Assembly: GCA_003158675.1 (NCBI GenBank) | Contig: PMKN01000072.1 | Coordinates: forward strand, 5,975-47,912 | Reading direction: 5' to 3' | Length of the DNA: 41,938 nt | Source of the DNA: Chloroflexota bacterium | GTDB lineage: Bacteria > Chloroflexota > Limnocylindria > Limnocylindrales > CSP1-4 | Shown here: positions 10,955 through 29,516 of the stretch, piece by piece | Position numbering within the stretch: the first letter of the stretch is position 1 | Layout of the letters: each line of letters opens with the position of its first letter | Program-made: the position numbers and the translations under genes | Notes under the pieces: generated by a model | Databases searched by the model: none | The model's input: only the letters and a program-made list of their open reading frames with translations | What the model was told of the DNA's origin: nothing

Positions 10955-10962
10955 GATATCAA

Positions 10963-11066
10963 ACGTACGACCGGCCGCCGGCCGGGTCCCGCAGCGGCGC
11001 GGAGTAGAGCCGCTATGGCACCCGATAAGCCGGTCTCTTCCCGGACGGTTGGCCTTTAGCGGCTGA
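10963..11066. repeat. 104-bp dispersed repeat, copy 1 (covers last codons, stop and 3' flank of CDS 11056..13575)
   Basis: Aligns ungapped with 29651..29754 with about 5 mismatches. Confidence 0.95.
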
Positions 11067-13575
11067 GGATGGCGGTCCCGAAGCGCCCGAGGGTCAGGAG
11101 CGCGCCTCCCCAGGCCCCGCCGGCGAGCAGGCTCAGCATCGCGAAGATCGATCCGTCATCGCCGCTCTTCTTCTGGCCGGATCCGGAAGCGGGATTGGCC
11201 GCGGCCGGCGACGTGGTCACGTCGGGGCTCGGCTCCGCAGTGGTAGTCGACGCCTCGGTCGCCGCCTCGGTCGCCGCCTCGGTCGCCGCCTCGACTGACG
11301 ACATCGCCGCGGCGCTCGCCTGCGGCGTTTGCGTGCGGCCGCTACCGCCCGTATTGGTCGTCGGTCTGCGCGTGGGCGTCGGGGTTCGCTTAAGCGTCGC
11401 AGTCGCAGTAGGTCTCGCAGTCGGCGCAGGTGTCGCAGTCGGCGCAGGCGTCGCCACGAAGGACGGACCGGGGCTGCAGGCAATGTCGACGCCGCCGCCG
11501 ACCGAGGAGACGTCGCTCAAGGTGTCGCCGTAGCTGCCGCTTCGGCCGTCGAGCATGGTGCCGTCGGCGGGCCCGACCGGAAGCCCAAGGTCAGAGTGGC
11601 CGCAGGCCGTGGCTTTGAACGTGACCTGGAGGAAGGTCTGCGCCCCGGCAGCGACATTCGGGTACGCCGACCCCGTCGGCATGAAGGCCGCGGCAACCGT
11701 GCTCAGGCTGCCCGACGAGTTGGCGGCAGTCACCGAAGCCGGGTCTCCACCCGCCTGGATAGGCGCGTTGGCCCAGGGCGCGCCGTAGGCGAGCGTCTGG
11801 ATCTGCAGCTTCGTGGTGTCGAATGTCACCGTCGCCTGAGTTCCGGCCAGTGGCAGCGGCGAGTGCGATACGACCCGGACAGTGAAGACCGTCCCGATGC
11901 CCACCCCGCTCGGGACAGTGGCTTCGAACCAGTCGGGCGTCGATGCCGTCGGCCCGGGAGTCGGTGCACCTGCGGATGTCGGGCTCGGTGTCGCAGTCGG
12001 CGCAGGTGTCGCAGTCGGCGGAGGCGTCGCCACGAAGGACGGACCGGGGCTGCAGGCAATGTCGACGCCGCCGCCGACCGAGGAGACGTCGCCCAAGGTG
12101 TCGCCGTAGCTGCCGCTTCGGCCGTCGAGCATGGTGCCGTCGGCGGCCCCGACCGGAAGCCCAAGGTCAGAGTGGCCGCAGGCCGTGGCTTTGAAGGTGA
12201 CCTGGAGGAAGGTCTGCGCCCCGGCAGCGACATTCGGGTACGCCGACCCCGTCGGCATGAAGCTCGCGGCAACCGTGCTCAGGCTGCCCGACGAGTTGGC
12301 GGCAGTCACTGAAGCCGGGTCTCCACCCGCCTGGATAGGCGCGTTGGCCCATGGCGCGCCGTAGGCGAGCGTCTGGATCTGCAGCTTCGTCTTGTCGAAC
12401 GTCACCGTCGCCTGAGTTCCGGCCAGTGGCAGCGGCGAGTGCGATACGACCCGGACAGTGAAGACCGTCCCGATGCCGACCCCGCTCGGGACAGTGACTT
12501 CGAACCAGTCGGGCGTCGATGCCGTCGGCCCGGGAGTCGGCGTGCCTGCCGATGTCGGAGGGGGCGTCGGGGTCGCAGTCGGCGTCGGGGTCGCAGTCGG
12601 CGCCGGGGTCGCAGTCGGCGGAGGCGTCTGCGAACCGCTGGGGCAGGCGAAGGGCGTGGGACTCAGCGTTGGCGAGGAGCTGGACGACGCTGTTCCCGTT
12701 GAGGTTGACGTCGGGGAAGGCAAGGGTGTTGGAGTCGGAGTCGGGGTCGGCGGTGAGGTCACGAACGGCGTCGAGCATGGATTGAAGCACGGGTCGATCG
12801 TCGGCGTCGGGGTCGGCGTGATCTGGGTCGTCGCGGTGGAAGTGGGCGTCGCGGTGGAAGTGGACGTCGCGGTGGAAGTGGACGTCGGACTCGGACTCGG
12901 AGTGCCGGCGGGAGAGGTGCTCGCGGACGGGTCGCAGCCGGAAGAGCAGGGATCGATGACATAGCCATCGGCGATCGAGTCGACCGGCAGCGAGCCTCCG
13001 TAGGTATCCGTCGGTGACTTGACTTGACCATAGCCAGTGCCGTCGAGCAGGCCACCCACGCCGGGCACGATCAGCGGGGTCAACAGGGTGCTTCCGCACG
13101 AGGTCACGAGGAAGCTCGCTGAGAAGATGGTCGCGTTCAGGCCGGCAGGGGCGGCGCCACCGTTGCGGGCCGCCGTGCTGTCCATGAATGCCCAGGCGAT
13201 CGTCGGGATCTCGCCTGTCGAATTGACCTGGCTCAAATACGTGCTCACCGCGGCCGGATCTGCGGGATTTGGCAAGCCGACGTACATGACGTTGCCGAGG
13301 CTGGTGTTCTGGGCCATGCCCGTCAGCTCGAGGCGTGTCCTGTCGAAATCAAGCCCGGCCCCGGCGCCGCTCAATGGCGAGCTTCCGTTCGCGTAGACGC
13401 TGACCGTGAAGGTGCTGCCGACACCCTGGTTGTTCACGGCAGGGCCGACACCGATCGTGTTCCCGGCCGCGAGGGCTGGCGCCGCAAGCGAAACGCTCGC
13501 GATAATGACGAGTGCCACGAGGGACGCCGCAGCGTACCTCGTGCGAATCCTTCGCGCCTTTCTGACCCGATCCAC
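11056..13575 (-). CDS. surface scaffold-like protein with three cohesin-like domains, P/T-rich linkers and C-terminal membrane anchor
   Basis: GTG start at 13575 with GGGAGG upstream; signal peptide RTRYAAASLVALVIIASVSLAAPALAA; three repeats of cohesin form (xVGSTFTVSVYANGSSPLSGAGAGLDFDRTRLEL; GIGTVFTVRVVSHSPLPLAGTQATVTFDKTKLQIQTLAYGAPW x2); C-terminal TM. Confidence 0.82.
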   Translation of the reverse strand: MDRVRKARRIRTRYAAASLVALVIIASVSLAAPALAAGNTIGVGPAVNNQGVGSTFTVSVYANGSSPLSGAGAGLDFDRTRLELTGMAQNTSLGNVMYVGLPNPADPAAVSTYLSQVNSTGEIPTIAWAFMDSTAARNGGAAPAGLNATIFSASFLVTSCGSTLLTPLIVPGVGGLLDGTGYGQVKSPTDTYGGSLPVDSIADGYVIDPCSSGCDPSASTSPAGTPSPSPTSTSTATSTSTATPTSTATTQITPTPTPTIDPCFNPCSTPFVTSPPTPTPTPTPLPSPTSTSTGTASSSSSPTLSPTPFACPSGSQTPPPTATPAPTATPTPTATPTPPPTSAGTPTPGPTASTPDWFEVTVPSGVGIGTVFTVRVVSHSPLPLAGTQATVTFDKTKLQIQTLAYGAPWANAPIQAGGDPASVTAANSSGSLSTVAASFMPTGSAYPNVAAGAQTFLQVTFKATACGHSDLGLPVGAADGTMLDGRSGSYGDTLGDVSSVGGGVDIACSPGPSFVATPPPTATPAPTATPSPTSAGAPTPGPTASTPDWFEATVPSGVGIGTVFTVRVVSHSPLPLAGTQATVTFDTTKLQIQTLAYGAPWANAPIQAGGDPASVTAANSSGSLSTVAAAFMPTGSAYPNVAAGAQTFLQVTFKATACGHSDLGLPVGPADGTMLDGRSGSYGDTLSDVSSVGGGVDIACSPGPSFVATPAPTATPAPTARPTATATLKRTPTPTRRPTTNTGGSGRTQTPQASAAAMSSVEAATEAATEAATEASTTTAEPSPDVTTSPAAANPASGSGQKKSGDDGSIFAMLSLLAGGAWGGALLTLGRFGTAILSR
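11450..11970. repeat. intragenic direct repeat unit A (cohesin domain module)
   Basis: Near-identical to 12026..12546, period 576 bp. Confidence 0.9.
12026..12546. repeat. intragenic direct repeat unit B (cohesin domain module)
   Basis: Near-identical to 11450..11970. Confidence 0.9.
12829..12885. repeat. 18-bp tandem repeat (P/T/S linker coding)
   Basis: gtcgcggtggaagtggac repeated about three times. Confidence 0.8.
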
Positions 13576-13671
13576 TCGATCTGCCTCCCGTTTGCACGTC
13601 CCGGCCGCCGGTAGCTCATGGGCTTCTGACCGCCAGCGCGGCCCAATGGCCACCGGCCGGAGGCTCAGCCC

Positions 13672-13694
13672 AGTCCCCGCTCGAGACGGGGACT
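13672..13694 (-). other. leader hairpin upstream of cohesin scaffold gene
   Basis: AGTCCCCG-ctcgaga-CGGGGACT, 8-bp perfect stem between pho-box-like array and start codon. Confidence 0.6.
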
Positions 13695-13726
13695 CCTTCA
13701 GTCGCTCCGTAGGTCGGCCGGTCGGC

Positions 13727-13775
13727 ACGATACTTCTCGAATGTGTCCGGATCGTTAGCGGCGTGTTATCAAACA
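13727..13775 (-). promoter_or_regulatory. pho-box-like array (3 x 11 bp) plus -10-like TATCGT
   Basis: Minus strand TGTTTGATAAC|ACGCCGCTAAC|GATCCGGACAC, 10 nt, TATCGT. Confidence 0.5.
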
Positions 13776-14161
13776 GGCGGCGAATGTGCGCGTACTCGCC
13801 CTGGACGCGAAACACTGGCTGCCCGGGCACGAATGCGTTTGTCCGACGGCACTGGGTTGAGGCCTACGGTCGATGGCTTGCCGAGAAGTTCGGCGGCTGG
13901 CTCTGGGTTGGACATCGGGGCGCCCGGCGCGGCATCAGCAGCGCGGGTCGCCGCCCCGGCCGAGGCCAATCCCGCGGCCGAGGAAATGCCCGCGGCCAAG
14001 AAGGAGCGGATCCGAGGTCAGCTCTTGGGCGAGCCGGCTTTGCTTGGCGCGTGCCCGAAGCCAATCGTCGCCGCTGGCCGACGGCTGGGACTTGGGACGC
14101 ATCATCTCGCCCAGAGCTCCCATGGCCGTCATCCTGGCCGCGTGGAACGAGCTCCCGCGGC

Positions 14162-14857
14162 TCACGATGTCGCCTCCGGTCGGGGCATATCGGCCGCGAT
14201 TCGACCGAGCAGGACTGGGAGGGGAGCGAGGGCCAGAACGGCCCCGGCAATCAGGACCAGAGAGACGGCGGGCGAAAGGGGAAGGAAGCCGGCACCGACG
14301 ACAAACACAACCAAACTCTCGAGCACGAGCCGGAACAGGATCGGCCGCGACTTGCGGACGATTAGCGAGAAGCTGAGAAGCGCCGCGTATGCGCAGGTGA
14401 ATCCCGCGATCTCGAAGGCAAGGTACTTGATGGCGTCGAGCTGGCGGAAGTAGAGGACTGTGTCGGAGGAGGCGTTGGCGAACTTGCCGGAGTAGAGCAT
14501 GACGGCGAGCGCAGGCAGGTTGCTGACGATCTCGAGGACGAGCGACATTACGACAAGGCTCACCGCGACGATCACAGCGTAGGGGTTCTCGTTGAACTGC
14601 CGGATGGAGAACATCAGCGCTACGGGCAGGAATGCGAATGCGTAGACGAGAAGGCAGACTCCCTGAGCGACACCGAACCAGTTCGTGCCGGTCGCCACCT
14701 TGTCGGGCACGAGGCCCGAGCCCGGGCTGAAGCTGGGAACCACGAGGAGATAGCAGGCGGCATAGCCGGCCATACCGAGGGCCGCCAGAAACGCCGCTCC
14801 GGCGAAGATCTTCCGCCACCCATCCGAGTTCGACGTCGCCACGTCCGACTTCGCCAC
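14162..14857 (-). CDS. uncharacterised multi-TM membrane protein (DUF4386-like)
   Basis: Several hydrophobic helices (IFAGAAFLAALGMAGYAACYLLVV; GVAQGVCLLVYAFAFLPVALMF; VIVAVSLVVMSLVLEIVSNLPALAVML); GTG start with GGAGGAG upstream is my choice, ORF is open to 15229. Confidence 0.55.
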   Translation of the reverse strand: MAKSDVATSNSDGWRKIFAGAAFLAALGMAGYAACYLLVVPSFSPGSGLVPDKVATGTNWFGVAQGVCLLVYAFAFLPVALMFSIRQFNENPYAVIVAVSLVVMSLVLEIVSNLPALAVMLYSGKFANASSDTVLYFRQLDAIKYLAFEIAGFTCAYAALLSFSLIVRKSRPILFRLVLESLVVFVVGAGFLPLSPAVSLVLIAGAVLALAPLPVLLGRIAADMPRPEATS

Positions 14858-15489
14858 CTTCGTCTCCTCCACACCTTTCGGGCACATACCTGCGGACCAT
14901 AGCCGGGACGCGTTAACATTTTCGCCGGACGTTGATCCCGGAATCGAAAGTGGCGAGTCGTTCGGCGACCAACGCTCCGGCTGCACTTCCACTGCCTGCC
15001 TCAGGAAGGCGGACTCGACTCGGGCTGGGCCAGAAGGGTCGCTCTTGGTCGGACTGCGCAGCTTCTTCGGCGACTCCAGCGGAGTTTCGACCACCCGCTC
15101 AACGGTTGCCCTCACGCGCCCCAGGGTGACCACGATCGGCTTCGGTTTGGCAACGCCCGCCGTCGCGCGGGCACCACGTTCATCTCCCTTGTAGGGAGAG
15201 ACGAGTCTATCGCGCCCCCGGCGGCTCACCGGGAGACGCAGCGCTAGGGGTCAAGCACCCGGGCGCCAAAGGACAGCCGGCAAGCATGCCTCCGCATTGT
15301 TCGTGTTACGGAGTCTGATTTGCAGACGCGGCCCGGGCATCCCAGACGCGATAGGCGGCGGCCTGTCGGATTCCCGACGCACCCATCACGGCGATTGGGA
15401 TCGTGCTGCGGATTCGGACACGAGCATCATTCGGACTGGGCAGTCCCCAAGCGCGCCGGTCGACGGCTGCAGCGTGGCGGCAGGACCGC

Positions 15490-17781
15490 TCAGTTCGGGC
15501 GCACGAAGCCCTTGCTGGCCCAGTGGCTGAGGATCGGGCCGATGTCGCCTAGGCCGACGGCGCCGTCGTTGTTGACGTCCGCGCGGATCCAGCCCTGACA
15601 GGTTGAGGTCTGCCCCCAGTGGCTGAGCAGGCCCGCGACGTCGCCCAGCCCGATCGCGCCGTCGAGGTTGGTGTCGCGGTCGGGGATCGGTTGACCGGCC
15701 GGCACGACCGTCTGGACGAAGCCGTTCTGGGCCAGCGATTGCTGGCCGGCGCTCGTGAGCATGAAGTTGACGAGGTCCTCGGCCTTTACCGTGGGCCAAT
15801 CGGTGAGCCCGGCGCCAGTGAAGGAGTTCTTGCGCATCGCGATGTAGAACGCTCTGGTGGCCGGGTAGGTCGAGTTCTGGACGTTGTACACGTTGGGCGC
15901 CACGCCGTCGAGATTGAGCGGCTTGAGGCCGGCCATGGTGGCGTCCGCGAGGCTCGTGTAGACGATCTGATATGGGCTCGCGGCGGCGGCAGCGGCTTCG
16001 TCGTAGGCAGAGCCCAGTCGGGCCAGCCCCGTCGCGGAGATCGTCGTCTGCTCGGCCGAGTCGGTCACCTTGAAGAGGCGGAGAAGGTCGGCGCGGTCCT
16101 CGGCGTCGATGGCGCCGGAGCGCGCAGCGATGGGCTGGTCAGGCCCTCCGAGGGCGCTCCAGTTGGTGATCGTGCCGCTGTAGATGCCCTGGACCTGGGC
16201 GGAGGTGATGTTGCTGATGAAGCTCATGGCCGGCGAGTTCTGGACGGCGATGACCATTGCGTCGCCCCCGATCTGCCACCCGTACAGGGTGCTCTCTTCG
16301 GTCGACGTCAAAGGTCTCGATATGGCTGCGGCATTGATCGTCCCCGCCTGCAAAGCTGCGATCGCCTGCGGGGTGGTGCCCGACAGGACCGACACGGTGC
16401 ACGCCGCGTTTGCGGCCAGCGCCTGGAACCCGAGTTGTGCCGAGCCTAGGACGGGCATCAACGACCACGAGCTGTCGACCCTGACGATGATCTGGCAGGC
16501 ACCGTAGCTTCGGACGTAGGCGTCCGAGCCGCCGATGCTGGTCTGGCCAGGCAGAGCGCCGGAAGTGGGCCCGGCCACGATAACGTTGCCCGCCCCGTCG
16601 ACGGCAACGCCGAATGCCAGATCGGTTGCTCCCGTGCCGAACTGGACAGTCCAGCTGGAGCTTCCGTCAGGGTGATAGGCCGTGACGAAGGCGTCCGATC
16701 CGCCGGAGCTTGTCTGACCGGGCAGGGCTCCTGCCGTGGAACCGGCAATGACGATGTCGCCGCTGAGGTTCACGGCCACTGCGTCGGCCGCGTCGTCCAG
16801 TGGGCTGCCGAACTGGCGCGTCCATGCGCGATCGCCGAGCGCGGAGTATGCCCGGACGAAGGCGTCCGACCCACCCAGCGCCGCCGAGCCCGGCAGGGCA
16901 CCACCGGCCGTGCCGACCGCAACGACGCCGCCCCCAAATGCCGGGGCGACCCCATTCACCACCGCACCGGCGAAGCTGTCCGTCCAGAGCGCGGAGCCGT
17001 CCTGGGAGTAGAAGCCCACGAAGGCGGATGAAGCGTACGCACCGCCAACGATCACGTGCCCCTGGGCGTCCACGGCCACGGATCTGGCGTCGTCGAAGAA
17101 CGGAGACGCGATAGAGATGGTCCAGCCCGGATTGCCACTGGCTGCCGCGAAGGAGCGCACCCAGCCGTCTTCGTCACCGCTATGCACGTCGAGCGAGTAT
17201 CCAGAGACAAAGACGTTGCCGTAGACATCGGTGGCGATGCTCTGTGCCACGTCGACTTTCGGGCTCCCAAACTGGCTCGTCCATCGTTCGTTGCCATGTG
17301 AGTCGTAAGAGCGGACGAAGGCGTCCATCCCGCCCGAACTCGTCTGTCCCGGGAGAGTTCCGGAGGTGTAGCCGCTCACGTATATGTTGCCGTTGCCGTC
17401 GACTGCGACCGCGAAGGCCACGTCGTCGGCCGAGGTCCCGAACTGAGTGGTCCACCGTTCGGCCCCCGTGAAGTCGTACGAGCGGACATAGGCGTCGTAG
17501 CCGCCCTGGCTCGTCTGGCCAGGTAGAGCGCCAGCCGTGTAGCCCACCACGAACGAATTGCCCAAGTCGTCGACCGCGACTGCCTCGGCCTCGTCAGCGC
17601 CCGACGTTCCGAACTGGTTGGTCCACCGGAGCTGCGGGGTGACGCCAGCCTGGGACGCTATGGTTGCCGACACGAGGTGCGCCGGGGCGCGGCTCGCCAG
17701 AACTGGCGTAGATGCCAACTCTGCCAGCGCCAGCGCAGCTATCGCCGCGAACCCCAGAACCCTTCCCCTGGAACTGGACAT
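15490..17781 (-). CDS. secreted protein: SBBP-type beta-propeller repeats + PstS-like phosphate-binding domain + C-terminal dockerin type I repeats
   Basis: About seven repeats of QFGTSGADEAEAVAVDDLGNSFVVGYTAGALPGQTSxGGxDAYVRSY; PBP segment GWQIGGDAMVIAVQNSP...VQGIYSGTITNWSALGGPDQPI; C-terminal DTNLDGAIGLGDVAGLLSHWG and DVNNDGAVGLGDIGPILSHWA calcium loops. Confidence 0.85.
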   Translation of the reverse strand: MSSSRGRVLGFAAIAALALAELASTPVLASRAPAHLVSATIASQAGVTPQLRWTNQFGTSGADEAEAVAVDDLGNSFVVGYTAGALPGQTSQGGYDAYVRSYDFTGAERWTTQFGTSADDVAFAVAVDGNGNIYVSGYTSGTLPGQTSSGGMDAFVRSYDSHGNERWTSQFGSPKVDVAQSIATDVYGNVFVSGYSLDVHSGDEDGWVRSFAAASGNPGWTISIASPFFDDARSVAVDAQGHVIVGGAYASSAFVGFYSQDGSALWTDSFAGAVVNGVAPAFGGGVVAVGTAGGALPGSAALGGSDAFVRAYSALGDRAWTRQFGSPLDDAADAVAVNLSGDIVIAGSTAGALPGQTSSGGSDAFVTAYHPDGSSSWTVQFGTGATDLAFGVAVDGAGNVIVAGPTSGALPGQTSIGGSDAYVRSYGACQIIVRVDSSWSLMPVLGSAQLGFQALAANAACTVSVLSGTTPQAIAALQAGTINAAAISRPLTSTEESTLYGWQIGGDAMVIAVQNSPAMSFISNITSAQVQGIYSGTITNWSALGGPDQPIAARSGAIDAEDRADLLRLFKVTDSAEQTTISATGLARLGSAYDEAAAAAASPYQIVYTSLADATMAGLKPLNLDGVAPNVYNVQNSTYPATRAFYIAMRKNSFTGAGLTDWPTVKAEDLVNFMLTSAGQQSLAQNGFVQTVVPAGQPIPDRDTNLDGAIGLGDVAGLLSHWGQTSTCQGWIRADVNNDGAVGLGDIGPILSHWASKGFVRPN

Positions 17782-17841
17782 CGTGCTCACCCTCTACCAA
17801 GAACGGCGCTAGCTAAGAGAGCCGTCGGTAAGAGAGCCAGC

Positions 17842-17874
17842 CGCGGGTGAACGGCGTATGAACCCGCCATTAAC
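17842..17874. promoter_or_regulatory. pho-box-like array, three 11-bp direct repeats
   Basis: Minus strand GTTAATGGCGG|GTTCATACGCC|GTTCACCCGCG; similar to PHO-box GTTCACC direct repeats known in actinobacteria. Confidence 0.65.
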
Positions 17875-17931
17875 AGCAGCGGCATGGCCGTCCTCGCAAG
17901 CACAATTCCAGCCCCGCGGTTGCGAATCGGC

Positions 17932-17980
17932 CGAACGTTAACGACAGGCGAACAACCAGATAACGCCGCCGCACGATCTT
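17932..17980 (+). promoter_or_regulatory. pho-box-like array (3 x 11 bp) plus weak -10-like GATCTT, upstream of pstS
   Basis: CGAACGTTAAC|GACAGGCGAAC|AACCAGATAAC, 10 nt, GATCTT. Confidence 0.6.
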
Positions 17981-18035
17981 CCTTGCTCACTGGGAGCCCG
18001 TCTGCTCAGCCGGCCCATGGAGGAGGATCTGTCCC

Positions 18036-18950
18036 GTGAGAAGAATGCGCAGTCTCGTGTTGTTTCTGATGCTTGGCGCAGTTGTGGGCGCCTGCGGATC
18101 GACCGGCGGCTCGTCGACCGCTCCGGGAGGCAGTGCATTGACGTCTGGATCGGGTGACCCAGGCTCCGCCGAGTGCGTGAAGGGTTCGATGGCCCTGGCC
18201 GGCTCCACCGCCCTTCAGCCGCTTCTGTCAGATGCTGCCGAAGCCTATATGAAACACTGCCCCGATGGAGCGATCATGATCAACGGGGGCGGTTCCGGCA
18301 TCGGACTTACCCAGGTCTCCCAAGGAGCCGTAGACGCGGGCTCTTCCGACATCATCGCCGCAGCGAAACTGCCCGCGGGCGATTCGGCGACTCTCGTTGA
18401 CCACGTCGTCTGCCGGCAGGCGTGGGTCGTGGCTACTAACAAAGACGTGACGGGCATTACGAACCTGACAACTGATCAGCAGCGCCAGATCTGGAGTGGC
18501 AAAGTCACCAACTGGTCGGCCGTGGGCGGGCCGGATCTCCCGATCGTCCTCATCGTCCGACCGGCATCATCTGGTACCCGATATGTCTTCCAGCAAGTCG
18601 TGCTGGGCGGCACCGTCATCAACGACACCGTTGGGCAGCTTCTTACAGAGGACTCGAACGGGGCCGTGGTTACGGCGGTCTCCAAGACTTCTGGCGCCAT
18701 TAGCGTCATCGGTCTCGCGTACTACAACGTCCCGGCCAACAAGGCGCAGCTCAACGGACTCCAGCTCGACGGCGTCGACGCGACCATTGCCAATGTCGAC
18801 AACAAGACGTACGAGCTGGCCGCCGAAGGCCACGTCTACACCAAGGGTGAGGCCAGCGGCCTCACCAAGGCGTTCCTCGATTTCATGCTGTCTGACGAAG
18901 TCCAGAAGACGATCGTCCCCAAGGACTCCTACGGCTCAGTCACAGGCTAG
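18036..18950 (+). CDS. pstS: phosphate-binding lipoprotein PstS (no dockerin)
   Basis: Lipobox LGAVVGACGS; GSTALQPLLSDAAEAYM, INGGGSGIGLTQVSQGAVDAGSSDI, WSGKVTNWSAVGGPDLPIVLIVRPASSGTRYVF; GTG start with GGAGGAGG. Confidence 0.93.
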   Translation: MRRMRSLVLFLMLGAVVGACGSTGGSSTAPGGSALTSGSGDPGSAECVKGSMALAGSTALQPLLSDAAEAYMKHCPDGAIMINGGGSGIGLTQVSQGAVDAGSSDIIAAAKLPAGDSATLVDHVVCRQAWVVATNKDVTGITNLTTDQQRQIWSGKVTNWSAVGGPDLPIVLIVRPASSGTRYVFQQVVLGGTVINDTVGQLLTEDSNGAVVTAVSKTSGAISVIGLAYYNVPANKAQLNGLQLDGVDATIANVDNKTYELAAEGHVYTKGEASGLTKAFLDFMLSDEVQKTIVPKDSYGSVTG

Positions 18951-19973: not shown

Positions 19974-20022
19974 CTCCCGATAACAACCCGAAAACACTCC
20001 GAGAACAACGCGTCCCTATGTT
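19974..20022 (+). promoter_or_regulatory. pho-box-like array (3 x 11 bp) plus -10-like TATGTT
   Basis: CTCCCGATAAC|AACCCGAAAAC|ACTCCGAGAAC, 10 nt, TATGTT. Confidence 0.65.
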
Positions 20023-20088: not shown

Positions 20089-21015
20089 GTGCGTCTGCGC
20101 CTTCGGAGTCAGGTTGCCCTCGTTTCCGCTATGGCGGTTTGGGCTGCCATCACCGCCACCCCCGTCGCAGCGGCTGATCCCACTCTCAGGATTGATCCGG
20201 GCACACAAAGCGTGGCGCAAGGGAGCACATTCACCGTCCACGTGGTGCAGAACGACGCCGACAAGTCGATGGGCGTACAGGCATCGCTCGCGTTCGACCA
20301 GACGAAGCTGCAGATCCAGAAGGTCAATCGAGGGGCTCCTTGGGCGGACGCTCCAATCGTGGCTCCGGCTGACTTCGCGGCAGCCATCTCGGATGCCAAC
20401 GGGAGCGGCAAGCTCGCCCAGTTCATGGCCGCGTTCATACCTCCAGCCACGGTCGCTTCGGGCGATGAGGACTTCCTCGATGTCACCTTCAAGGCCACGG
20501 GTTGCGGCCAGGTCGCGCTCAGTCTCCCGATCTCGCTCACCGACAGCCTGATGCTGGACGCAACCGGGGGAACTCTCACGATCCAGACCGTCGGCGCCAC
20601 CGTCACGATCAACAACTGCGGCGCAGGCAACGGCGGCAACACCAGCCAGCCAACTGCCACCCCCGCTTCGGGCGCCACCCCGGCCTCGGGCGCCACCCCG
20701 GCCTCGGGCGCAAGCGCGGGCGCAAGCCAGGAAGCGGGCGCCCCCCAGGACACATCCGGCCAATCGTCCCCCGGAGCGACTGCCGCCCCGACCCAGGTCG
20801 CAGGCGACACCTCCGGAGACGGAGGCGGCAATCCCGCCAATCAAACGATCGGAATCGGAGGCGGTGCCGGTCCCGTCAGCAACTCGATCTCAGGGTCGGG
20901 AGCATCCGGGAACGCGACCAACGTTCCAGGGTGGCTGCCGATCGTCCTCGCCATTCCAGCTGTAGCGGTGATCTTGCTGGGGCTGCGGAAATGGCGGCTG
21001 GAGGAGATGCACTGA
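20089..21015 (+). CDS. single-cohesin surface protein with C-terminal TM anchor
   Basis: GTG start after AGGAGG; DPTLRIDPGTQSVAQGSTFTVHVVQNDADKSMGVQASLAFDQTKLQIQKVNRGAPWADAP...FLDVTFKATGCGQVALSL matches the cohesin domains of 11056..13575; WLPIVLAIPAVAVILLGLRKWRLEE anchor. Confidence 0.82.
   Translation: MRLRLRSQVALVSAMAVWAAITATPVAAADPTLRIDPGTQSVAQGSTFTVHVVQNDADKSMGVQASLAFDQTKLQIQKVNRGAPWADAPIVAPADFAAAISDANGSGKLAQFMAAFIPPATVASGDEDFLDVTFKATGCGQVALSLPISLTDSLMLDATGGTLTIQTVGATVTINNCGAGNGGNTSQPTATPASGATPASGATPASGASAGASQEAGAPQDTSGQSSPGATAAPTQVAGDTSGDGGGNPANQTIGIGGGAGPVSNSISGSGASGNATNVPGWLPIVLAIPAVAVILLGLRKWRLEEMH
20665..20715. repeat. 18-bp tandem repeat coding ASGATP linker
   Basis: gcytcgggcgccaccccg in tandem. 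Confidence 0.85.
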
Positions 21016-21224
21016 TGGCTCCCGAGATCACCGGGCCATGCGGCTCAGGGAGCCATGCGACGAAGCCTGACCATCCCTATGACCAACGGTCGCTTTCGGC
21101 GTGCTTGAGAGAACCCGACCGAGAACGTCCGACCAGAAGAATTGGAGGTGATAGCGAGTCCAAGCCTCGACGCATGGCCCCTCAGATTAACACGCAAGAC
21201 AACGACCTCACAGAGAGGATTTCT

Positions 21225-22400
21225 ATGATGTACCAGGTTCTTGGCCGCGTGCAGCGGCTGCCGGCGGTGCTGGCAGCTTCCGCGATCGTGGCGACTTCGC
21301 TCCTGGTGGCGCCGGGCAGCACTTTCGCTGCCGGGACGTGTCCGCTTCCGAGCGTTCTCGAGTCCGGCTCCACCACCGTCTACCCGGCCCTCCAGGCCGG
21401 CAACTCCGCCCTTCAGACCGCGCTGGGCTGCTCCGTGAGCCTCGTGGCCAGCGGTTCCGGTGCGGGCATCAACGACGCCATCAGCGGCGCTTCGCAGATC
21501 GCGGCGTCGTCCACTCCGCTCAGTGGCACCCAGCCCGCCAGCCTCTACGCCTGGCAGATCGGCGGCGACGCGATGGTCATCGCGATGAACGCCAACACCG
21601 CCGCCAGCCTGGGTGTCACCCAGATCACCAAGGCCCAGGTCGCGCAGATCTGGACCTCCACCGCCGCCGGCGGCGTCTCGAACTGGAGCAGCTTCGGCTA
21701 CGGCTCGGGCACGATCGTTCCGCGCGGCCGCGACGGCAACACCTCCGGCTCCTACAAGGACTTCTACCAGAAGTTCGGCATCACCCAGACGGCTATGGAC
21801 GCCACGATCACCGCTACGGGTCTGCCCCTCCTGCAAACCAGCCAGGATGAGGCCACCGCTGCTTGCAATGACCCAAGCGACATCGTCTACACCAGCCTTG
21901 CCAACTTGCAGGCCTTTGGCCCCGCGGGCCAGGGCTGCCTCGTCGCGCTTGCTCTGTCGGCTGACGGCAGCGCTGGCTCGTACGTGATGCCCACCGTCAC
22001 GAGCGTCCAGACCGGGACGTACCCGGTACCGCGCCAGCTCTTCCTCGTCATGAAGAAGTGGAGCCTCATCGGTTCTGCGACCACGACCGACAGCTCTGCC
22101 GAGGTCAAGGCCCAGGACATGCTCAACTTCTACATGAGCAGCGCCGGCCAGGCTTTCGTCGGCCAGGCCGGCTTTGTCCCCGGCACTATCCCGGCTGCCA
22201 AGCCCATCCCCGACTTCGACGTCAACCTCGACGGCGCTGTCGGCCTCGGCGACATCGGCAACATCCTCGGCCGCTGGGGCGCCACGTCGCCCTGCAAGGG
22301 CTGGATCCGCGCTGACGTAGCCAACCAGGGCGCAGTCGGCCTCAGCGGCATCGGCCAGGTCCTCGCCCATTGGGGCCAGAAGGGCTTCGTTGCCCCGTAG
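21225..22400 (+). CDS. PstS-like phosphate-binding protein with C-terminal dockerin module
   Basis: CPLPSVLESGSTTVYPALQAGNSALQ...VASGSGAGINDAISGASQIAASSTPLSG...WQIGGDAMVIAMNANT; C-terminal DVNLDGAVGLGDIGNILGRWG plus degenerate DVANQGAVGLSGIGQVLAHWGQ; ATG 21225 with GAGAGGA upstream. Confidence 0.87.
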   Translation: MMYQVLGRVQRLPAVLAASAIVATSLLVAPGSTFAAGTCPLPSVLESGSTTVYPALQAGNSALQTALGCSVSLVASGSGAGINDAISGASQIAASSTPLSGTQPASLYAWQIGGDAMVIAMNANTAASLGVTQITKAQVAQIWTSTAAGGVSNWSSFGYGSGTIVPRGRDGNTSGSYKDFYQKFGITQTAMDATITATGLPLLQTSQDEATAACNDPSDIVYTSLANLQAFGPAGQGCLVALALSADGSAGSYVMPTVTSVQTGTYPVPRQLFLVMKKWSLIGSATTTDSSAEVKAQDMLNFYMSSAGQAFVGQAGFVPGTIPAAKPIPDFDVNLDGAVGLGDIGNILGRWGATSPCKGWIRADVANQGAVGLSGIGQVLAHWGQKGFVAP

Positions 22401-22441: not shown

Positions 22442-23491
22442 ATGAATCGCACTCGACTGGCCGCCCTAGGCCTGGGCGCCATCATCGCAGTCGGCAGCAT
22501 TGCCGCCCCGATGACCATCTTTGCCGCCTCGGGCAACTACTATAAGGTCACCCCGGCGACCACCCCCACGACCTCCGGCGGCACCTTCTCAGTCGGGATC
22601 TACTCGACTAGCAGCGCGGCGATCGCCGGCTCCGGCGCAGGCATCACCTTCGACCCGACGAAGATCCTCCTGCAGTCCGTCACGACCAACTCGACGCTCA
22701 CCAGCGCCACCTGGACGGGCGTCCCGACTGCCGGGGTTATTGCGACCGCCAACAGCACCGGCTCGCTGCCGGACGTGGGCTGGTTCTGGTCCGGCGGCAC
22801 GCAGCCGGCCGGCGACAACCTTCTCTACACCGCCACCTTCAAGGCCGTCAACTCCTACTTCGCTAGCACGTCGATCACCCCGTTCGTGACCGACGGCGTT
22901 GGCGGCATCATGTACGGCGACTACTCCTTCGCGGTTCTCGACCCGGCCGTCGCCGGCACCGTCACCAACCCGGCCCCGACCCCGACCCCGACCCCGACCG
23001 CGACCCCGGTCCCGACCCCGACCCCGGCCGTCACCCCGACCCCGGCTGTCGCGGGCAATGGCACCACGAACGTCACCGGCCAGGTCGACTTCGGTTTCCT
23101 GTCCCTCAGCGTTCCGGCGAACACCACCATCAATCTCGTCCGCAACTCGACGGCCACGGCGAATGTGCCGGTCACCGTCTACTCGAACATCATGTGGAAC
23201 ATGCAGGTCAGCGATCCGAAGACCGCCAACACGGGCTTCATGACCTCGGGCGCCAACGTCCTGCACAACCCGATGCACGTTTGGCAGGGCACGAAGCCGG
23301 ATCCGGCTTACCCGGCCAACTTGCTGCCGCTCTACGACGTCGATCTCAGCTCGACGACCGCCAGCCCGTCGCTGGGCAGCGGCTCGAACAGCATGATCGT
23401 CACCACGACTCTCGCGCAGTACACCGTCGCCCAGGACCTGCCGGGCACGTACGGCATCCAGGTCCTGTACTCCGCGTTCTCGGGCTTCTAG
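22442..23491 (+). CDS. secreted cohesin-like + PT linker + WxL-like C-terminal domain protein
   Basis: SGGTFSVGIYSTSSAAIAGSGAGITFDPTKILLQSV cohesin-like; PTPTPTATPVPTPTP linker; C-terminal GQVDFGFLSLSVPANTTINL...SNIMWNMQVSD...YTVAQDLPGTYGIQVLYSAF resembling WxL domains. Confidence 0.68.
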   Translation: MNRTRLAALGLGAIIAVGSIAAPMTIFAASGNYYKVTPATTPTTSGGTFSVGIYSTSSAAIAGSGAGITFDPTKILLQSVTTNSTLTSATWTGVPTAGVIATANSTGSLPDVGWFWSGGTQPAGDNLLYTATFKAVNSYFASTSITPFVTDGVGGIMYGDYSFAVLDPAVAGTVTNPAPTPTPTPTATPVPTPTPAVTPTPAVAGNGTTNVTGQVDFGFLSLSVPANTTINLVRNSTATANVPVTVYSNIMWNMQVSDPKTANTGFMTSGANVLHNPMHVWQGTKPDPAYPANLLPLYDVDLSSTTASPSLGSGSNSMIVTTTLAQYTVAQDLPGTYGIQVLYSAFSGF

Positions 23492-23513
23492 TCCGCGATC
23501 GCTGAGTTAGCTC

Positions 23514-23539
23514 GGGGAGTGGCGGAAACGCCACTCCCC
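23514..23539 (+). terminator. intercistronic hairpin between 22442..23491 and 23569..24627
   Basis: GGGGAGTGGCG-GAAA-CGCCACTCCCC, 11-bp perfect stem, GAAA loop, followed by ATTTCCCTGCTT. Confidence 0.65.
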
Positions 23540-23568
23540 ATTTCCCTGCTTCAATAGAAGGTATCCGG

Positions 23569-24627
23569 ATGCATTCACTACCTGGACGACTTGGACGCGC
23601 TCTCCTGCTGGGAACCCTTCTCCTCATGGGGCAGGTTTGCGCTTCGAACGCAGCCGATCCCACCCAGACTCAGACCTCGGCCGGGCGAACGGCTCTTCCA
23701 TCCGGGACCCTCACCGTCTCTCCCACCATCGTCAGCGTGTCCATCGCACCCGGAGGATCAGGCTCCGCGGACCTGACCGTACGCTCCGGCGTGGTGCAGA
23801 CGGTCTCGGTTCAAGTAGCCGGGCTCGGCCAGCTCGGCGATGGCTCCTTCAGCTACCTCTCCGCGGCCGCCGACACGAGCGCGTACTCGGCCCGGAGCAT
23901 GGTCACCGTCAGCCCGACCACCTTCCAGATGAATGTGGGCACCGAACAGACGATCAGCCTTAAGGTCGCGGTTCCCCAGAATGCGGGCAACGGCACGCGC
24001 TACGCGGCCCTGCGCATCAGCGGCACGCCGGGCACTGGAAACCAAAACGTAGGCATAGGGGTGGAGATCGGCATACCCATTCTGGTCAGCCTCGCCGATA
24101 CCCAAGCGACCACGACGGGGGCGGTCGCCGGCCTCTCGGTCGCCTCGAACAACCTCGGTCGCTACACCGTGACCGGCAGCGTCACCAACACCGGCAACTC
24201 CCACTACGGGGCGCCTCCCAACCAGGTCAACGTCAACGCGACCGTGTACGACGCCACCAACAAGGTGTTCGCCGGCGGCAAGGAAGTCTTCACAGGGAAC
24301 TCAATCGTCCCTTCCTTCTCGCGCGACTTCTCGCTCGACCTTGGAAAGCCGTTGACCGCCGGCCACTATCGCCTCGAAGTGAGCGCGGTCCTCCAGAACG
24401 GTACTGTCCTCGGTAAGACAGCCCTGGCCTTCGACGTGTCCGGCGACAGCGTCGCGGGCGCGACAAGCGTCGCCGTGATGGGCGGAAACCAGAACAACGG
24501 CAGCGGCTCTGGCCCCGACAACGGAACGCTCCTCATCGCCGTGTGCGGAGGAGTGCTCGCCGGCGCGCTGGTGGCGGCCTTGGTCATCGTCGGAACCAGA
24601 CGTCGCGGCAAGAGCGCCACCGCCTGA
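23569..24627 (+). CDS. DUF916/WxL-interacting-protein-like exported protein with C-terminal TM
   Basis: GTLTVSPTIVSVSIAPGGSGSADLTVRSG...FQMNVGTEQTISLKVAVPQNAGNGTRYAALRISG...VTGSVTNTGNSHYGAP; C-terminal TM GGVLAGALVAALVIVGTRRRG. Confidence 0.65.
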   Translation: MHSLPGRLGRALLLGTLLLMGQVCASNAADPTQTQTSAGRTALPSGTLTVSPTIVSVSIAPGGSGSADLTVRSGVVQTVSVQVAGLGQLGDGSFSYLSAAADTSAYSARSMVTVSPTTFQMNVGTEQTISLKVAVPQNAGNGTRYAALRISGTPGTGNQNVGIGVEIGIPILVSLADTQATTTGAVAGLSVASNNLGRYTVTGSVTNTGNSHYGAPPNQVNVNATVYDATNKVFAGGKEVFTGNSIVPSFSRDFSLDLGKPLTAGHYRLEVSAVLQNGTVLGKTALAFDVSGDSVAGATSVAVMGGNQNNGSGSGPDNGTLLIAVCGGVLAGALVAALVIVGTRRRGKSATA

Positions 24628-24648
24628 GCCTGCCAGGGCCCAACGAGT

Positions 24649-27165
24649 GTGCCCGGATCCCATCCTGCGGAGTTAGTCTTGAAGCCGACCTCCAGGCCAG
24701 ATAGCGACACTGACAGTCCTCCCCACCCCGCGCGGCGTCCATACCGACGCCGCCTGCGCCTGGGCGGAGCCATCAGCGTCCTGATCGCCCTCGCGGTGGC
24801 GGCGTCGCTCGCGCTCGCTCCCCTCGCCGTTTCCGCGGGTGGAATCGGCACTCTGGCGGTTAACCCCACCGACGAGACGGTCGCCGGCGGAGCTCCATTC
24901 TCCATCGACATCGTCCAGAAGGCCGGCGTCGCAACCAGTCAGGTCCAGACCGACCTGACCTTCGATCCGAGTCTGGTTCAGCTCCAGGAGATCAAGGCCG
25001 GGCCGGCGTGGACCGGATCCGTCTTTGCTTTCGGCAATGATGCGGCCACGGCCGCGGACGCGATCGCCGGCGCGAACCAGAACGGGACGGTGACGATCAC
25101 CGTGCTGGCCACCGGGAAGTCAGTGTCCGCCGGTGAGACCACGTTCGTGACCCTGAGATTTGCAGCGGTCTCCGGTCCCGGCGGAAGATCCGAACTCCGG
25201 CTCCGCAACGCGACAATGGCGGATGCCGCGACCCAGGCCACGTTCCCGGTCATCCTGACGTCCGGATCGGTGACGATTACGCCCGGCGGTGGGTCCGTCT
25301 CGAGCCCTATCGCCTCGGGTTCGATCACGCCGTCCCTCCCGCCGTGTCCGTCCGCCACCCCTGCGGAAAGCGGTACCGCAAGTCCGCTGCCAAGCGCCAT
25401 GAAGCCCGGTCCCAAGGGTTCGGCCAAGCCCACCGTTCAGCCCTCGGCTGCGCCCTGTGCTACGCCGGCGCCCACTCCCGCTCCGAGCCCCACGCCGGCC
25501 GGCCCCGCGACGGTCACGCTGTACCTCGTTACCGATCACGACACCGTCGCGGTCGGAGACACGATCACGGCCACGATCCTGGAGAACTCGGACAATCCGC
25601 TCAGCTCGGTCACCTTTGACGTGGGCTTCGATCATTCGCTGCTGCAGGTCGTCTCAGTGGATGCGGCGACGACCTGGCAAGGAGCCACCCTAATACCGTC
25701 CCGGCCGTCGGTGGTTCAGGCTGCTATCGACCGGGCCAACAGCGCCATCCTCGACGTGAACTACCCAAACGAGGGGGTGCTGCAGGGCATTGGGATCAAC
25801 GTGCCGGCCGAGGTCGGGGACGTCTCCGTATCGGGATCGCTTCTGACAGTCACCCTGAAGGCGATTCGAACCGGAAATGTCGACATCCAGGTCACTCCTG
25901 TGGATGCGACCGATGCAACCGGAGTCACGGAGCAGATGGTCGGCAGCTCGGCTGCGGTCATGATCGCCACCTCTACGGGCGGCGCCGGCGGAGGCGGTGC
26001 GACCGGGGGAAAAGGGCTTGACGTCGACTGGGTGCTGCTCGTCTCCGCCAGCGTCCTGTTCGTTGAACTCCTCGCATGCGTAGTCGTGATGCTTCTCCCG
26101 GCTCGCACCCTCAGGTCCGGTGTGCGGCTCCGTCTGCCGTCCTGGCCGTTCGTGGTGTCGCTCCTGCTCGGCCTCATCCCGGTGGGGCTCTTCGCAGGGC
26201 TGGTTGGCCTGATCGTCGTCAACAGCCTGCCGGCGCTGACCAGCCCGGGCATCGCCGCTCTGTTCGACGACCACTTCTCCGGTCATGTCTATAGCAATGC
26301 GACGAGTGGCGCCTTTGGCCTTGCTCCTGCCGTCGCCGGGACGGTCCTGATAGGTATCGTGGCAATGACGATCGCCTTACCGGTGTCACTCGCGCTGGCG
26401 ATCGTGACGACGGAGTTCCCCATGGGTCCGCTCGGTCGCGTTCTGCGACCCGTCGTCGGTCTGCTGTCGGGCATTCCGCCGATCATCTACGCAGTCTCGA
26501 TGGTCGCCTTCGTCAGAATACTCATCATCCCGAAGTTCACGGCCGATTCGACCTTCGCCACCTTCAACGGCGGCGCCGCAATCGGGGTCGATCCGTCCAC
26601 CTGGCCGCCGGCGGGAATTCCCAGCGGGGGACTTCCCGGCCTGTTCCCCTGGGACCTCACCGGGATGGTTGGCTGTACGTTCCTGGCGGGCCTGCTCATC
26701 TCCCTGCTGGTTATCCCGTTCATCACGCCGATGATCGCGGACGCAATTCGGAACGCGCCCACTTCTACGAGAGAGGCCTCGCTGGCTCTCGGGGCGAGCC
26801 GAGCGTACACCCTTCGACATGCCATCCTGCCACGCGCTCTTCCGGCGATCCTGTCCGCGGTGGTCCTGGGCCTGCTGAAGGCTGTCGGCGACGTGGCGAT
26901 CGTCACGTTCGCGGCCGGGGCGGAGGCGGACACGATTCCCAACCCCATCTTCGACATCTTTGAGCACACGCCATCGCTCGCGGCCCACGGGGCCAACATG
27001 ATCGTCCCTTTCACACAACTCTCCACCGGCATGGTGACCCAGAGCAGCGCGGCCAACACGGCGGTCGGCTACGTCTGCGCGCTCCTGCTCCTGGCGCTGG
27101 CCGTGGCCATGATCCTGATCTTGAACAGCCTTCAAGCGCGGTGGCGCCGGAGCCTTGCCGGATGA
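24649..27165 (+). CDS. pstC: phosphate ABC transporter permease PstC with two N-terminal extracytoplasmic cohesin-like domains
   Basis: N-terminal TM, cohesin-like 1 (TVAGGAPFSIDIVQKAGVATSQVQTDLTFDPSLVQLQEIKAGPAWTG), linker, cohesin-like 2 (TVAVGDTITATILENSDNPLSSVTFDVGFDHSLLQVVSVDAATTW), then permease with EAA loop REASLALGASRAYTLRHAILPRALPAILSAVVLGLLKAVGD. Confidence 0.88.
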   Translation: MPGSHPAELVLKPTSRPDSDTDSPPHPARRPYRRRLRLGGAISVLIALAVAASLALAPLAVSAGGIGTLAVNPTDETVAGGAPFSIDIVQKAGVATSQVQTDLTFDPSLVQLQEIKAGPAWTGSVFAFGNDAATAADAIAGANQNGTVTITVLATGKSVSAGETTFVTLRFAAVSGPGGRSELRLRNATMADAATQATFPVILTSGSVTITPGGGSVSSPIASGSITPSLPPCPSATPAESGTASPLPSAMKPGPKGSAKPTVQPSAAPCATPAPTPAPSPTPAGPATVTLYLVTDHDTVAVGDTITATILENSDNPLSSVTFDVGFDHSLLQVVSVDAATTWQGATLIPSRPSVVQAAIDRANSAILDVNYPNEGVLQGIGINVPAEVGDVSVSGSLLTVTLKAIRTGNVDIQVTPVDATDATGVTEQMVGSSAAVMIATSTGGAGGGGATGGKGLDVDWVLLVSASVLFVELLACVVVMLLPARTLRSGVRLRLPSWPFVVSLLLGLIPVGLFAGLVGLIVVNSLPALTSPGIAALFDDHFSGHVYSNATSGAFGLAPAVAGTVLIGIVAMTIALPVSLALAIVTTEFPMGPLGRVLRPVVGLLSGIPPIIYAVSMVAFVRILIIPKFTADSTFATFNGGAAIGVDPSTWPPAGIPSGGLPGLFPWDLTGMVGCTFLAGLLISLLVIPFITPMIADAIRNAPTSTREASLALGASRAYTLRHAILPRALPAILSAVVLGLLKAVGDVAIVTFAAGAEADTIPNPIFDIFEHTPSLAAHGANMIVPFTQLSTGMVTQSSAANTAVGYVCALLLLALAVAMILILNSLQARWRRSLAG

Positions 27166-28589
27166 CAGCTAGGAGCGAGAGCGAATTGGCCCTGGAGAAT
27201 AGCCAGTCCACGGCTGCCGGTCTTGAGCGGTTCTCTCTCGGCCGATCGAGCCAGATTGCCCGGTCCATTCGACTTGTGTATGGCCTGCCCCTGGCAGTGT
27301 CTCTCATGGGGATCGCCGGGGGGATGGCGCTCCTGATTTCCGATCAGCCCGACCCTATCGCTACCCCAGCGTTCAGCCTCCTCGCCCTGGCTCTGCTGGC
27401 GGCGACACTCCACGTTCGGATGGAGACGGCGGTCACCAGCCGATCCGCGCTGGCATTGATCGGCCTGCTCGCGGTCTCTGCGCTGGCCTCGCTTCTTCTG
27501 CCGAAATGGCTATACGGACTTCAGCTGAACGCGATCATCAGCCGAACCGCGATCACGTCACCCCTCCTGCTGGTCCTGTCGACGGCGGTTTGTTCGCACT
27601 CCCTGCGCGCCTTGCTGGGCAATACGCCCGGAGCCGGCGATAAGGCCCTGTATCCCTGGCTGATCCTGCCGATATTCCTCGTTGTGCTGGCCTACGGGCT
27701 GATCTTCTTCAATGTGGTCGTCGACGGACTGCATGGTCTTTCGCTGGATCTGCTGACCAGGGCGTATGACCCAACGGTCGTTGCCAAGAACGTGACGGCC
27801 AACACGCAGTATTCACCGGTCCCCGGGCTCAGGAACCAGATCCTCGGATCGCTCCTGCTGCTGGCAATGTCCCTCTCCTTCGCGGCGCTGCCCGGCATCG
27901 GGGCCGGCGTCTTCATGGCCGAGTATCCCGGTCGGATCGCCACGGTGATCAGCCTGTCACTTCAGATGCTGCGCGCCATTTCGCTCTTCGTCATCGGGGC
28001 AGCGGCCTACAGCATGATTCTGGGCATGACCGGCACGCCCGGTGATGACCTCACATCCAAACTCGTGCGCGGCGTCAGCCTCACGTCCACCGGACTGTCG
28101 CTGCCGGAGCGTGGGTCGTTCTTGCTGGTGTCGGGCCTGGTCGCGCTGGTCGTGGCCCCGGTCATCGCGAAGATGACGGAGGAAGGACTGCGTTCAGTCC
28201 CGCGAGAGTTGCGCGAGGCGTCCGTTGCGCTAGGTGCGGGGGATGGTTTCGGGCTCCGGCGCGTGTTACTGCCCTGGGCCGGACCGAACATCCTTACCGG
28301 CCTCCTCATCGCCGCCGCAGAGACCAGCGCCAGCCTGGCGATCATCATCTTCTTCGCCGGCACTGGTGAGACGGGCGTGGGTCCCGTCAATGGCGTAACG
28401 ACGCTCGACTTCGCCATCTTCGCCTCCCACTGGGGAGGCGGGGGCAACTTCTTTGCAACGGCGATGAATCCGTACCACATGACCGCTGCTCTGCTGCTCA
28501 TCGTGCTGGCGCTCGGAATGACGGTGGCGTCGATGCTCATGCAGCGGCGGATGGGCCGGCGTGCCCGGGGCTCACTGACTGCCATCTAG
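27162..28589 (+). CDS. pstA: phosphate ABC transporter permease PstA (with extra N-terminal TM region)
   Basis: ATG overlaps pstC stop (ATGA); EAA loop REASVALGAGDGFGLRRVLLPWAGPNILTGLLIAAAETSAS; GIGAGVFMAEYPG. Confidence 0.88.
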   Translation: MTARSESELALENSQSTAAGLERFSLGRSSQIARSIRLVYGLPLAVSLMGIAGGMALLISDQPDPIATPAFSLLALALLAATLHVRMETAVTSRSALALIGLLAVSALASLLLPKWLYGLQLNAIISRTAITSPLLLVLSTAVCSHSLRALLGNTPGAGDKALYPWLILPIFLVVLAYGLIFFNVVVDGLHGLSLDLLTRAYDPTVVAKNVTANTQYSPVPGLRNQILGSLLLLAMSLSFAALPGIGAGVFMAEYPGRIATVISLSLQMLRAISLFVIGAAAYSMILGMTGTPGDDLTSKLVRGVSLTSTGLSLPERGSFLLVSGLVALVVAPVIAKMTEEGLRSVPRELREASVALGAGDGFGLRRVLLPWAGPNILTGLLIAAAETSASLAIIIFFAGTGETGVGPVNGVTTLDFAIFASHWGGGGNFFATAMNPYHMTAALLLIVLALGMTVASMLMQRRMGRRARGSLTAI

Positions 28590-28637
28590 GACCACGTTCC
28601 GCGGTCCTGATACCCGGGATAGGAGAGACGAACCGAG

Positions 28638-29516
28638 ATGACCGAGTCGTTCGAGAACCAGTGGCTGCGACGCTCAGATGCCGGTGGCGTGGCCGTCCAG
28701 GACGTGCCGGCTGCCCTCGGGCTACGCAAGGAGCCGACGCCGACGAACGTGATGGAGACGCAGTCTCTGCAACTCTGGTATTCCGGTCGCCAGGTGCTGA
28801 AGGGAGTCTCGGTACCAGTCGTCCAGGGGAAAGTGACGGCGATCGTCGGCCCATCCGGCTGCGGCAAGACCACCCTCCTCCGGAGTCTGAACCGTCTTAC
28901 TGATCTCTCCCGCAACTGCCGGATCGAGGGCAAGATCCTGCTGGACGGCGAGGACTGCATGGCAATGGATCCCGTGGCGCTGCGACGGCGCGTCGGCATG
29001 GTCTTCCAGCGGCCGAATCCCTTCCCAATGTCCATCCGCGAGAATGTGCTCTATGGCGTGCGGGCCCAGAAAAGGAAGAAGGCTCGTTTCGACGAGATCG
29101 TAGAGGCCAGCCTCCGCAAGGCCGTCATCTGGGACGAGGTCAAGGACAGGCTGGACGAAAGCGCTCTCAATCTGTCCGGCGGCCAGCAGCAGCGGATCTG
29201 TATCGCCCGCACCCTTGCCGTCTCGCCCGAGGTGGTGCTGATGGACGAGCCGGCTGCCTCGCTCGATCCACGCTCCACCGCCAAGCTCGAGGAGAGCGTC
29301 ATGGCGATGCGAGGCGAGTACACCGTTGTCGCGGTTACGCACGAGCTCTCGCAGGCCCGGCGCATCTCCGAGAACCTGGTCTTCATCTACGAGGGCCACA
29401 TCGTCGAGTTCGGCGAAACCAAGCAGCTCTTCGAGGACCCGCGCGAGGAAGCCACCCGAGACTACCTGTCCGGTGGCCTCGTGACCTCGATCGAGGAGGA
29501 AGAGGCGGCCTCCTAG
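28638..29516 (+). CDS. pstB: phosphate ABC transporter ATP-binding protein
   Basis: Walker A GPSGCGKTTLLRSLNRL, VFQRPNPFPMSIRENV, signature LSGGQQQRICIARTLA, Walker B VVLMDEPAASLDP. Confidence 0.95.
   Translation: MTESFENQWLRRSDAGGVAVQDVPAALGLRKEPTPTNVMETQSLQLWYSGRQVLKGVSVPVVQGKVTAIVGPSGCGKTTLLRSLNRLTDLSRNCRIEGKILLDGEDCMAMDPVALRRRVGMVFQRPNPFPMSIRENVLYGVRAQKRKKARFDEIVEASLRKAVIWDEVKDRLDESALNLSGGQQQRICIARTLAVSPEVVLMDEPAASLDPRSTAKLEESVMAMRGEYTVVAVTHELSQARRISENLVFIYEGHIVEFGETKQLFEDPREEATRDYLSGGLVTSIEEEEAAS

Follow-up and report, generated by a model that had tools for sequence, protein, structure and literature searches.

The 41,938-nucleotide stretch of DNA analysed here (the window; contig PMKN01000072.1 of assembly GCA_003158675.1, from a Chloroflexota bacterium of the CSP1-4 lineage) carries seven genes in the order cohesin protein (F), PstS-dockerin protein (G), cohesin protein with a WxL-like domain (H), WxLIP-like protein (I), cohesin-cohesin-PstC fusion (J), PstA (K) and PstB (L). 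This F–L locus is a second Pst system, beside the ordinary pst operon of the same genomes. A further cohesin scaffold, A, is encoded on the minus strand. Gene calls and Pfam searches confirmed the genes previously listed for the window; those of the system, with their promoter repeats, are given below (TM, transmembrane segment; nt, nucleotides).

11056–13575, minus strand: A, scaffold with three cohesins (PF00963, domain extraction, start choice, TM scan)
13743–13771, minus strand: PHO-box-like 11-bp repeats upstream of A, TGATAACACGC CGCTAACGATC CGGACAC, one mismatch each
19978–20006, plus strand: PHO-box-like triple 11-bp repeat CGATAAC/CGAAAAC/CGAGAAC upstream of F, two overlapping exact matches
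20089–21015, plus strand: F, one cohesin (nt 20179–20619), signal peptide and C-terminal TM (PF00963 1.9e-8; TM scan)
21174–22400, plus strand: G, secreted non-lipidated PstS with a C-terminal dockerin-like module (nt 22212–22397) (PBP_like_2 7.4e-13; PDB 4gd5; loop reading)
22442–23491, plus strand: H, cohesin (nt 22532–22972) and C-terminal domain with one conserved W-x-[LM] motif, no TM (extraction, Foldseek, TM scan)
23569–24627, plus strand: I, WxLIP-like two-domain membrane-anchored protein (sub-threshold PF06030, then PF11797, then TM)
24649–27165, plus strand: J, two cohesins (nt 24844–25284 and 25507–25971), an extra TM, then the PstC permease from about 26131 (PF00963 3.6e-11; BPD_transp_1 2.1e-11; TIGR02138 1.2e-36)
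27141–28589, plus strand: K, PstA permease with an extra N-terminal TM region (Pfam, NCBIfam, TM scan)
28638–29516, plus strand: L, PstB ATPase (TIGR00972 1.9e-102)

The start of G was moved to 21174 because its orthologue in a second genome of the genus, G012, has the same MAxxINT start. A most likely starts at 13575, where a GGGAGG Shine-Dalgarno sequence is followed by a proper signal peptide.

Cohesin domains, anchors and dockerin-like tails

An earlier reading of the sequence alone had counted at least seven cohesin-like domains in four proteins, two of them fused to PstC, and this count stands: hand extraction and alignment place three in A, one each in F and H, and two in J. PF00963 scores above its gathering cut-off in the open reading frame (ORF) that holds A (11056–13830, minus strand; E 2.1e-8, two stretches), in F and in J (two stretches), and orthologous scaffolds also pass. 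The H cohesin has no PF00963 match in the window; an orthologue in locus L046 scores 23.3 against the cut-off of 24.1, and Foldseek searches with a low-confidence model of H return mostly cohesin structures. Searched against the PDB, the cohesin profile finds cellulosomal cohesins. Together with the Pfam matches, this dispels the concern that the domains might be unrelated immunoglobulin folds.

In A the cohesins lie at nt 13464–12946, 12510–12052 and 11934–11476, in a protein with a signal peptide, P/T-rich linkers and a C-terminal TM. In J, a hydrophobic N-terminal segment and the two cohesins are followed by an extra TM (462–480), a basic stretch and then the PstC part; because of this TM and the basic stretch that follows it, the positive-inside rule would place both cohesins outside the cell.

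The TM scan finds a C-terminal TM in A, F and I and none in H. The C-terminal domain of H is conserved, and H adjoins I, so that a WxL-like H and a WxLIP-like I may form a further anchor pair within the operon, a suggestion that we offer as a lead. The WxL families, to which the sequence-only reading had looked, gave little: PF06030 (E 0.19) and PF11797 (E 0.12) fall below threshold in I, H has no Pfam WxL domain match, and PDB profile searches with I and H returned no match.

Two further binding proteins are encoded between A and F.

15490–17790, minus strand: C, SBBP beta-propeller repeats, PstS-like domain and dockerin-like module (Pfam, loop reading, binding-protein alignment)
17936–17953, plus strand: single PHO-box-like match upstream of D, one mismatch
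18036–18950, plus strand: D, plain lipoprotein PstS without dockerin (PBP_like_2 2.6e-37; TIGR02136 2.5e-58; lipobox VGAC)

The plain pstS (D), pstA and pstB expected from the initial inspection are thus present, with profile matches for each. The modules that end G and C are repeats of dockerin type, and the best PDB matches of a dockerin profile are, weakly, the dockerins of cellulosomal scaffoldins (4u3s, E 0.005). The module of C (nt 15681–15493) has two complete D-x-N-x-D-G...D calcium loops, while in that of G the first loop is complete and the second degenerate. Among the counterparts described below, both loops are complete in G012 and G072, and in the more distant G204 essentially so.

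Conservation and distribution

The same seven genes are found in the same order in the window genome (G000), in G012 (L044/L045) and G008 (L046/L047), which belong to its genus, and in G072 (L103), from another genus of the family, where the operon runs straight into an ordinary pstS-pstC-pstA-pstB. Identity between orthologues, over the aligned stretches, ranges from about 36% (I in G072) to 75% (PstB in G012).

We surveyed 177 genomes of the class with a custom cohesin profile, a dockerin profile and the J-type PstC (E < 1e-25). Dockerin and J-type PstC each match in four genomes, in both cases G000, G008, G012 and G072. The cohesin profile matches in five: in these four, where every match lies within or beside the loci described, and in G001, where an orphan H-like protein (L048 22–1362; G001:C75) sits on a 3.6-kb contig and no dockerin was found. 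All dockerin matches in the class, those of the window genome included, are on PstS-type proteins. Chance can be excluded as the source of this pattern, because four syntenic loci recur and both modules share the same four genomes, one orphan cohesin apart. PstS-dockerin and PstC-cohesin, whose co-occurrence across genomes had been proposed as a check on the idea, therefore go together in four of four genomes.

A PstS-dockerin query of 84,980 named species genomes returned three loci (fen_1067, fen_1042 and KTt_bin-0728), matching G012, G008 and G072; the scan was keyed on two short conserved peptides and would miss divergent relatives. Scanning with the whole J protein confirmed no relatives, probably because the J patterns were drawn from one sequence. 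Downstream of the system in G012 lies a very large ORF (3368 aa; L045 9015–19121), possibly secreted.

A second architecture was recovered through its PstC, in a sample of the phylum, from G204, a single-contig genome of 1,725,728 bp in another family and class of Chloroflexota, where a J-like PstC and a cohesin lie about 4 kb apart. This looser cluster (L119, G204:C1:155001–175000, at 1976–14593), in which the cohesins are not fused to PstC, encodes a PstS-dockerin with two loops, an H-like cohesin+CARDB protein, an I-like protein (E 6.6e-23 to the I profile), a cohesin+fn3+TM protein, a lone cohesin (PF00963 2.3e-7), a second binding protein, an unfused PstC, a PstA that aligns to K from its residue 121, and PstB. 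In both architectures PstA is extended at its N-terminus by a region with several TMs (K at 27141–28589 and L119 12066–13799, the latter with a DUF6962 match). At the thresholds used, no further PstS-dockerin was found in the G204 family (11 genomes) or in a sample of its class (275), and cohesin matches elsewhere in the phylum, outside the class of the window genome, had no pst gene nearby in the loci of about 2–3 kb that were checked.

Could the fusion or the gene order be an assembly artefact of metagenome bins? The four syntenic loci do come from fragmented assemblies, and the three with named records are metagenome bins. However, the same fusion and order appear in four separate assemblies, in which the PstC part of the fusion is 52–58% identical, and the related cluster of G204 lies in a single-contig genome. 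We regard an artefact as extremely improbable.

Probable phosphate binding and Pho control

G matches PF12849 (PBP_like_2) above its cut-off. The best PDB match of its family profile is 4gd5 (E 4.6e-21), which was solved with phosphate bound and has the S-R motif seen in G, and the top solved relatives are phosphate-binding proteins. A low-confidence model of G likewise returns PstS structures from Foldseek. The phosphate-loop motifs GSTT, GSGAG and SGS are kept in G and its orthologues. In C, which was found in the window genome only, they are lost, with SSWS, TTPQA and AED in their place, and C is probably not the phosphate receptor that the sequence-only reading had taken it to be; it could possibly bring its propeller module onto the same scaffolds. 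Neither G nor C has a lipobox or any TM beyond the signal peptide, a lack that in G makes docking an explanation of how the receptor would be retained at the surface.

The region upstream of F has two overlapping exact matches to CGNNAACNNNNCGNNAAC, with 0.05 expected in the window. The same repeats also precede F in G012 and G008, exactly, and A in those two genomes and the window, with one mismatch; the region before F in G072 gave none. The motif was built from the F promoters, so the matches at A and at ordinary pst loci are the independent ones. In the genus, 12 of the 18 ordinary-pst loci examined contain exact matches; 17 of the loci have a pstS, and in 8 of these the matches lie no more than 160 nt upstream of the estimated pstS start, typically as CGTTAACGAACCGCCAACAC. 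The usual form of a PHO box is an 11-bp direct repeat, and because the repeats have this form, the operon is likely to be under Pho (phosphate-starvation) control. That ordinary pst operons share them also strengthens the link to phosphate. As an observation in its own right, the repeats CGTTAACGAACCGCCAACAC..CGTTAA, conserved upstream of ordinary pst operons in the genus (L017–L033), are a candidate Chloroflexota PHO box. Near the ordinary pst genes of the window genome lie a PhoB-type regulator (response-regulator and Trans_reg_C domains), PhoU and a PHO4-family transporter.

Proposed mechanism and its alternatives

Our conclusion, which we hold with fairly good confidence, is that the locus encodes a second, probably phosphate-starvation-controlled Pst ATP-binding cassette (ABC) importer whose receptor is recruited by cohesin–dockerin pairing instead of by a lipid anchor. 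The dockerin of G would bind the cohesins of the single-TM proteins A (three) and F (one), that of H, a surface protein possibly held by I, and the two on the putatively extracellular N-terminal part of PstC in J. A pool of receptors at the surface would consist of those bound to A, F and H; G docked on J would be positioned right over the translocation pore, with J, K and L as channel and motor. What was observed are the domains, the conserved order of the genes, their co-occurrence, the promoter repeats in common and, from sequence, the anchors; the binding of dockerin to cohesin, phosphate as the substrate, delivery to J and the receptor pool are what we infer. We also lean, somewhat less firmly, towards the broader view that this is a class of transporter in which receptors plug non-covalently into the permease and surface scaffolds via cohesin–dockerin pairs, giving cellulosome-like nutrient capture with exchangeable receptors, and which is ancient or has spread horizontally within Chloroflexota.

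Several results weigh against this interpretation. Most members of the genus lack the system. The structure models of G and H are poor (AlphaFold, from alignments of 4–5 sequences; mean pLDDT, the predicted local distance difference test, 41 and 44), and we take the Foldseek results from them as supportive only. All dockerin type I (PF00404) scores fall just short of the gathering cut-off of 22.9 (C 16.9, G012 19.5, G072 20.8, G204 21.4), and Pfam finds no match in the G proteins of the window and of G008. The modules are called dockerin-like, and not members of PF00404, because of these scores; of the two dockerin-bearing binding proteins first proposed, then, the repeats are there in both, but neither reaches the family cut-off and the second loop of G is degenerate. 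In G008 (L046 7944–9119, minus strand) neither calcium loop is complete: N3, D5 and D12 of the first are replaced, as are the matching ligands of the second, and calcium-driven docking is unlikely there.

These last points could mean that the modules do not bind each other at all, the cohesins being generic beta-sandwich spacers or adhesion domains and the dockerin a stabilising EF-hand tail. Sub-threshold dockerin scores and the lost ligands of G008 favour this, as do the distant cohesins of other Chloroflexota proteins, around which no pst gene lies for about 1.5 kb. However, in the class the two modules co-occur near-exclusively and are confined to these loci, and PstS-dockerin and cohesins meet again in the different architecture of G204. 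Furthermore, the rest of the G008 domain is conserved despite the ligand replacements, and between G012 and G008 the dockerin has a dN/dS of about 0.27 (0.14/0.52), indicating purifying selection. We therefore think it unlikely that receptor and scaffolds do not bind. What does change is the expectation of calcium-dependent docking as a general rule: because G008 has lost most of its calcium ligands and the window G keeps one loop, docking, if general, could not be uniformly calcium-driven. Calcium dependence is thus doubtful, and the G008 dockerin is possibly a calcium-independent one.

A slightly less improbable alternative, to which we still give a small share of our belief, is that docking does occur but serves the import or sensing of another oxyanion or of an organic phosphorus compound, or that the system is a surface phosphorus sensor and not a bulk phosphate importer. 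The right NCBIfam families come out best for PstC, PstA and PstB, though below their equivalog cut-offs (126/196, 89/193 and 341.9/343.2 bits), which likewise counts against us and makes a related substrate possible; the TIGR02136 score of G is 80.8, where the cut-off for naming is 206.6. The genome already has an ordinary pst operon, PhoU and a PHO4-family transporter, and the degenerate binding domain of C suggests roles other than transport. Against this stand the phosphate-bound 4gd5 and the other top relatives of G, the conserved phosphate loops and the promoter repeats common to ordinary pst, and the phosphate importer remains the reading that we prefer.

Neighbouring genes

For the window neighbours M (DUF7933/DUF11), B and E no counterpart was seen at the other syntenic loci, and they were therefore left out of the system. 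The DUF7933/DUF11 protein next to the operon (29744–31951, minus strand) is secreted, has five such repeats and ends in a C-terminal TM. At 33902–35302 (minus strand) a surface protein is encoded whose C-terminal membrane domain is of superinfection-immunity type (PF14373).

Comparison with known systems

The sequence-only reading knew of no Pst system built in this way, and our searches of the open literature bear this out: they found no description of cohesin or dockerin with PstS, substrate- or solute-binding proteins, transporters, permeases, Chloroflexi or Dehalogenimonas, most subscription journals being outside their coverage. The parts belong to known families; their combination appears to be new. 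Judging by the literature searched, an ABC importer with a receptor recruited by cohesin–dockerin pairing would, if the proposal is right, be the first of its kind, extending that interaction from carbohydrate digestion to nutrient uptake. Such pairing offers a way to keep a non-lipidated receptor and to raise its local concentration at the pore, and a natural plug-in system would make the effect of receptor tethering on ABC import rates testable. It would also supply new cohesin–dockerin pairs, one of which (G008) is possibly calcium-independent.

Like the high-affinity phosphate importer PstSCAB, the system has a PstS-type receptor, two permeases, a PstB ATPase and PHO-box-like promoter repeats. 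It differs in its receptor, which has a dockerin but lacks a lipid anchor; in PstC, with two putatively extracellular cohesins and one additional TM; in PstA, which is extended by an N-terminal TM region; in the anchored cohesin scaffolds that the operon encodes; and in being paralogous to the ordinary Pst of the same genomes. With WxL/WxLIP gene clusters, a surface protein family described in PMC10599100, it shares a surface protein bearing a W-x-L motif, whose neighbour is anchored by a TM and has two domains that match PGBD and HBD weakly but in the correct order; here, however, the matches are below threshold, there is a single W-x-L-like motif, and a cohesin is part of the WxL-like protein. 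The cellulosome, too, combines arrays of cohesins on an anchored scaffold with dockerin on the cargo, whereas the cargo here is a nutrient receptor and not a glycoside hydrolase, one pair of cohesins sits on a transporter, and Pfam finds no carbohydrate-binding module in the operon. In GlnPQ and OpuA, substrate-binding domains are covalently linked to the translocator and so held permanently at the permease (PMC8025302, PMC11065425); the receptor described here would also be held at its permease, but would plug in non-covalently and exchangeably.

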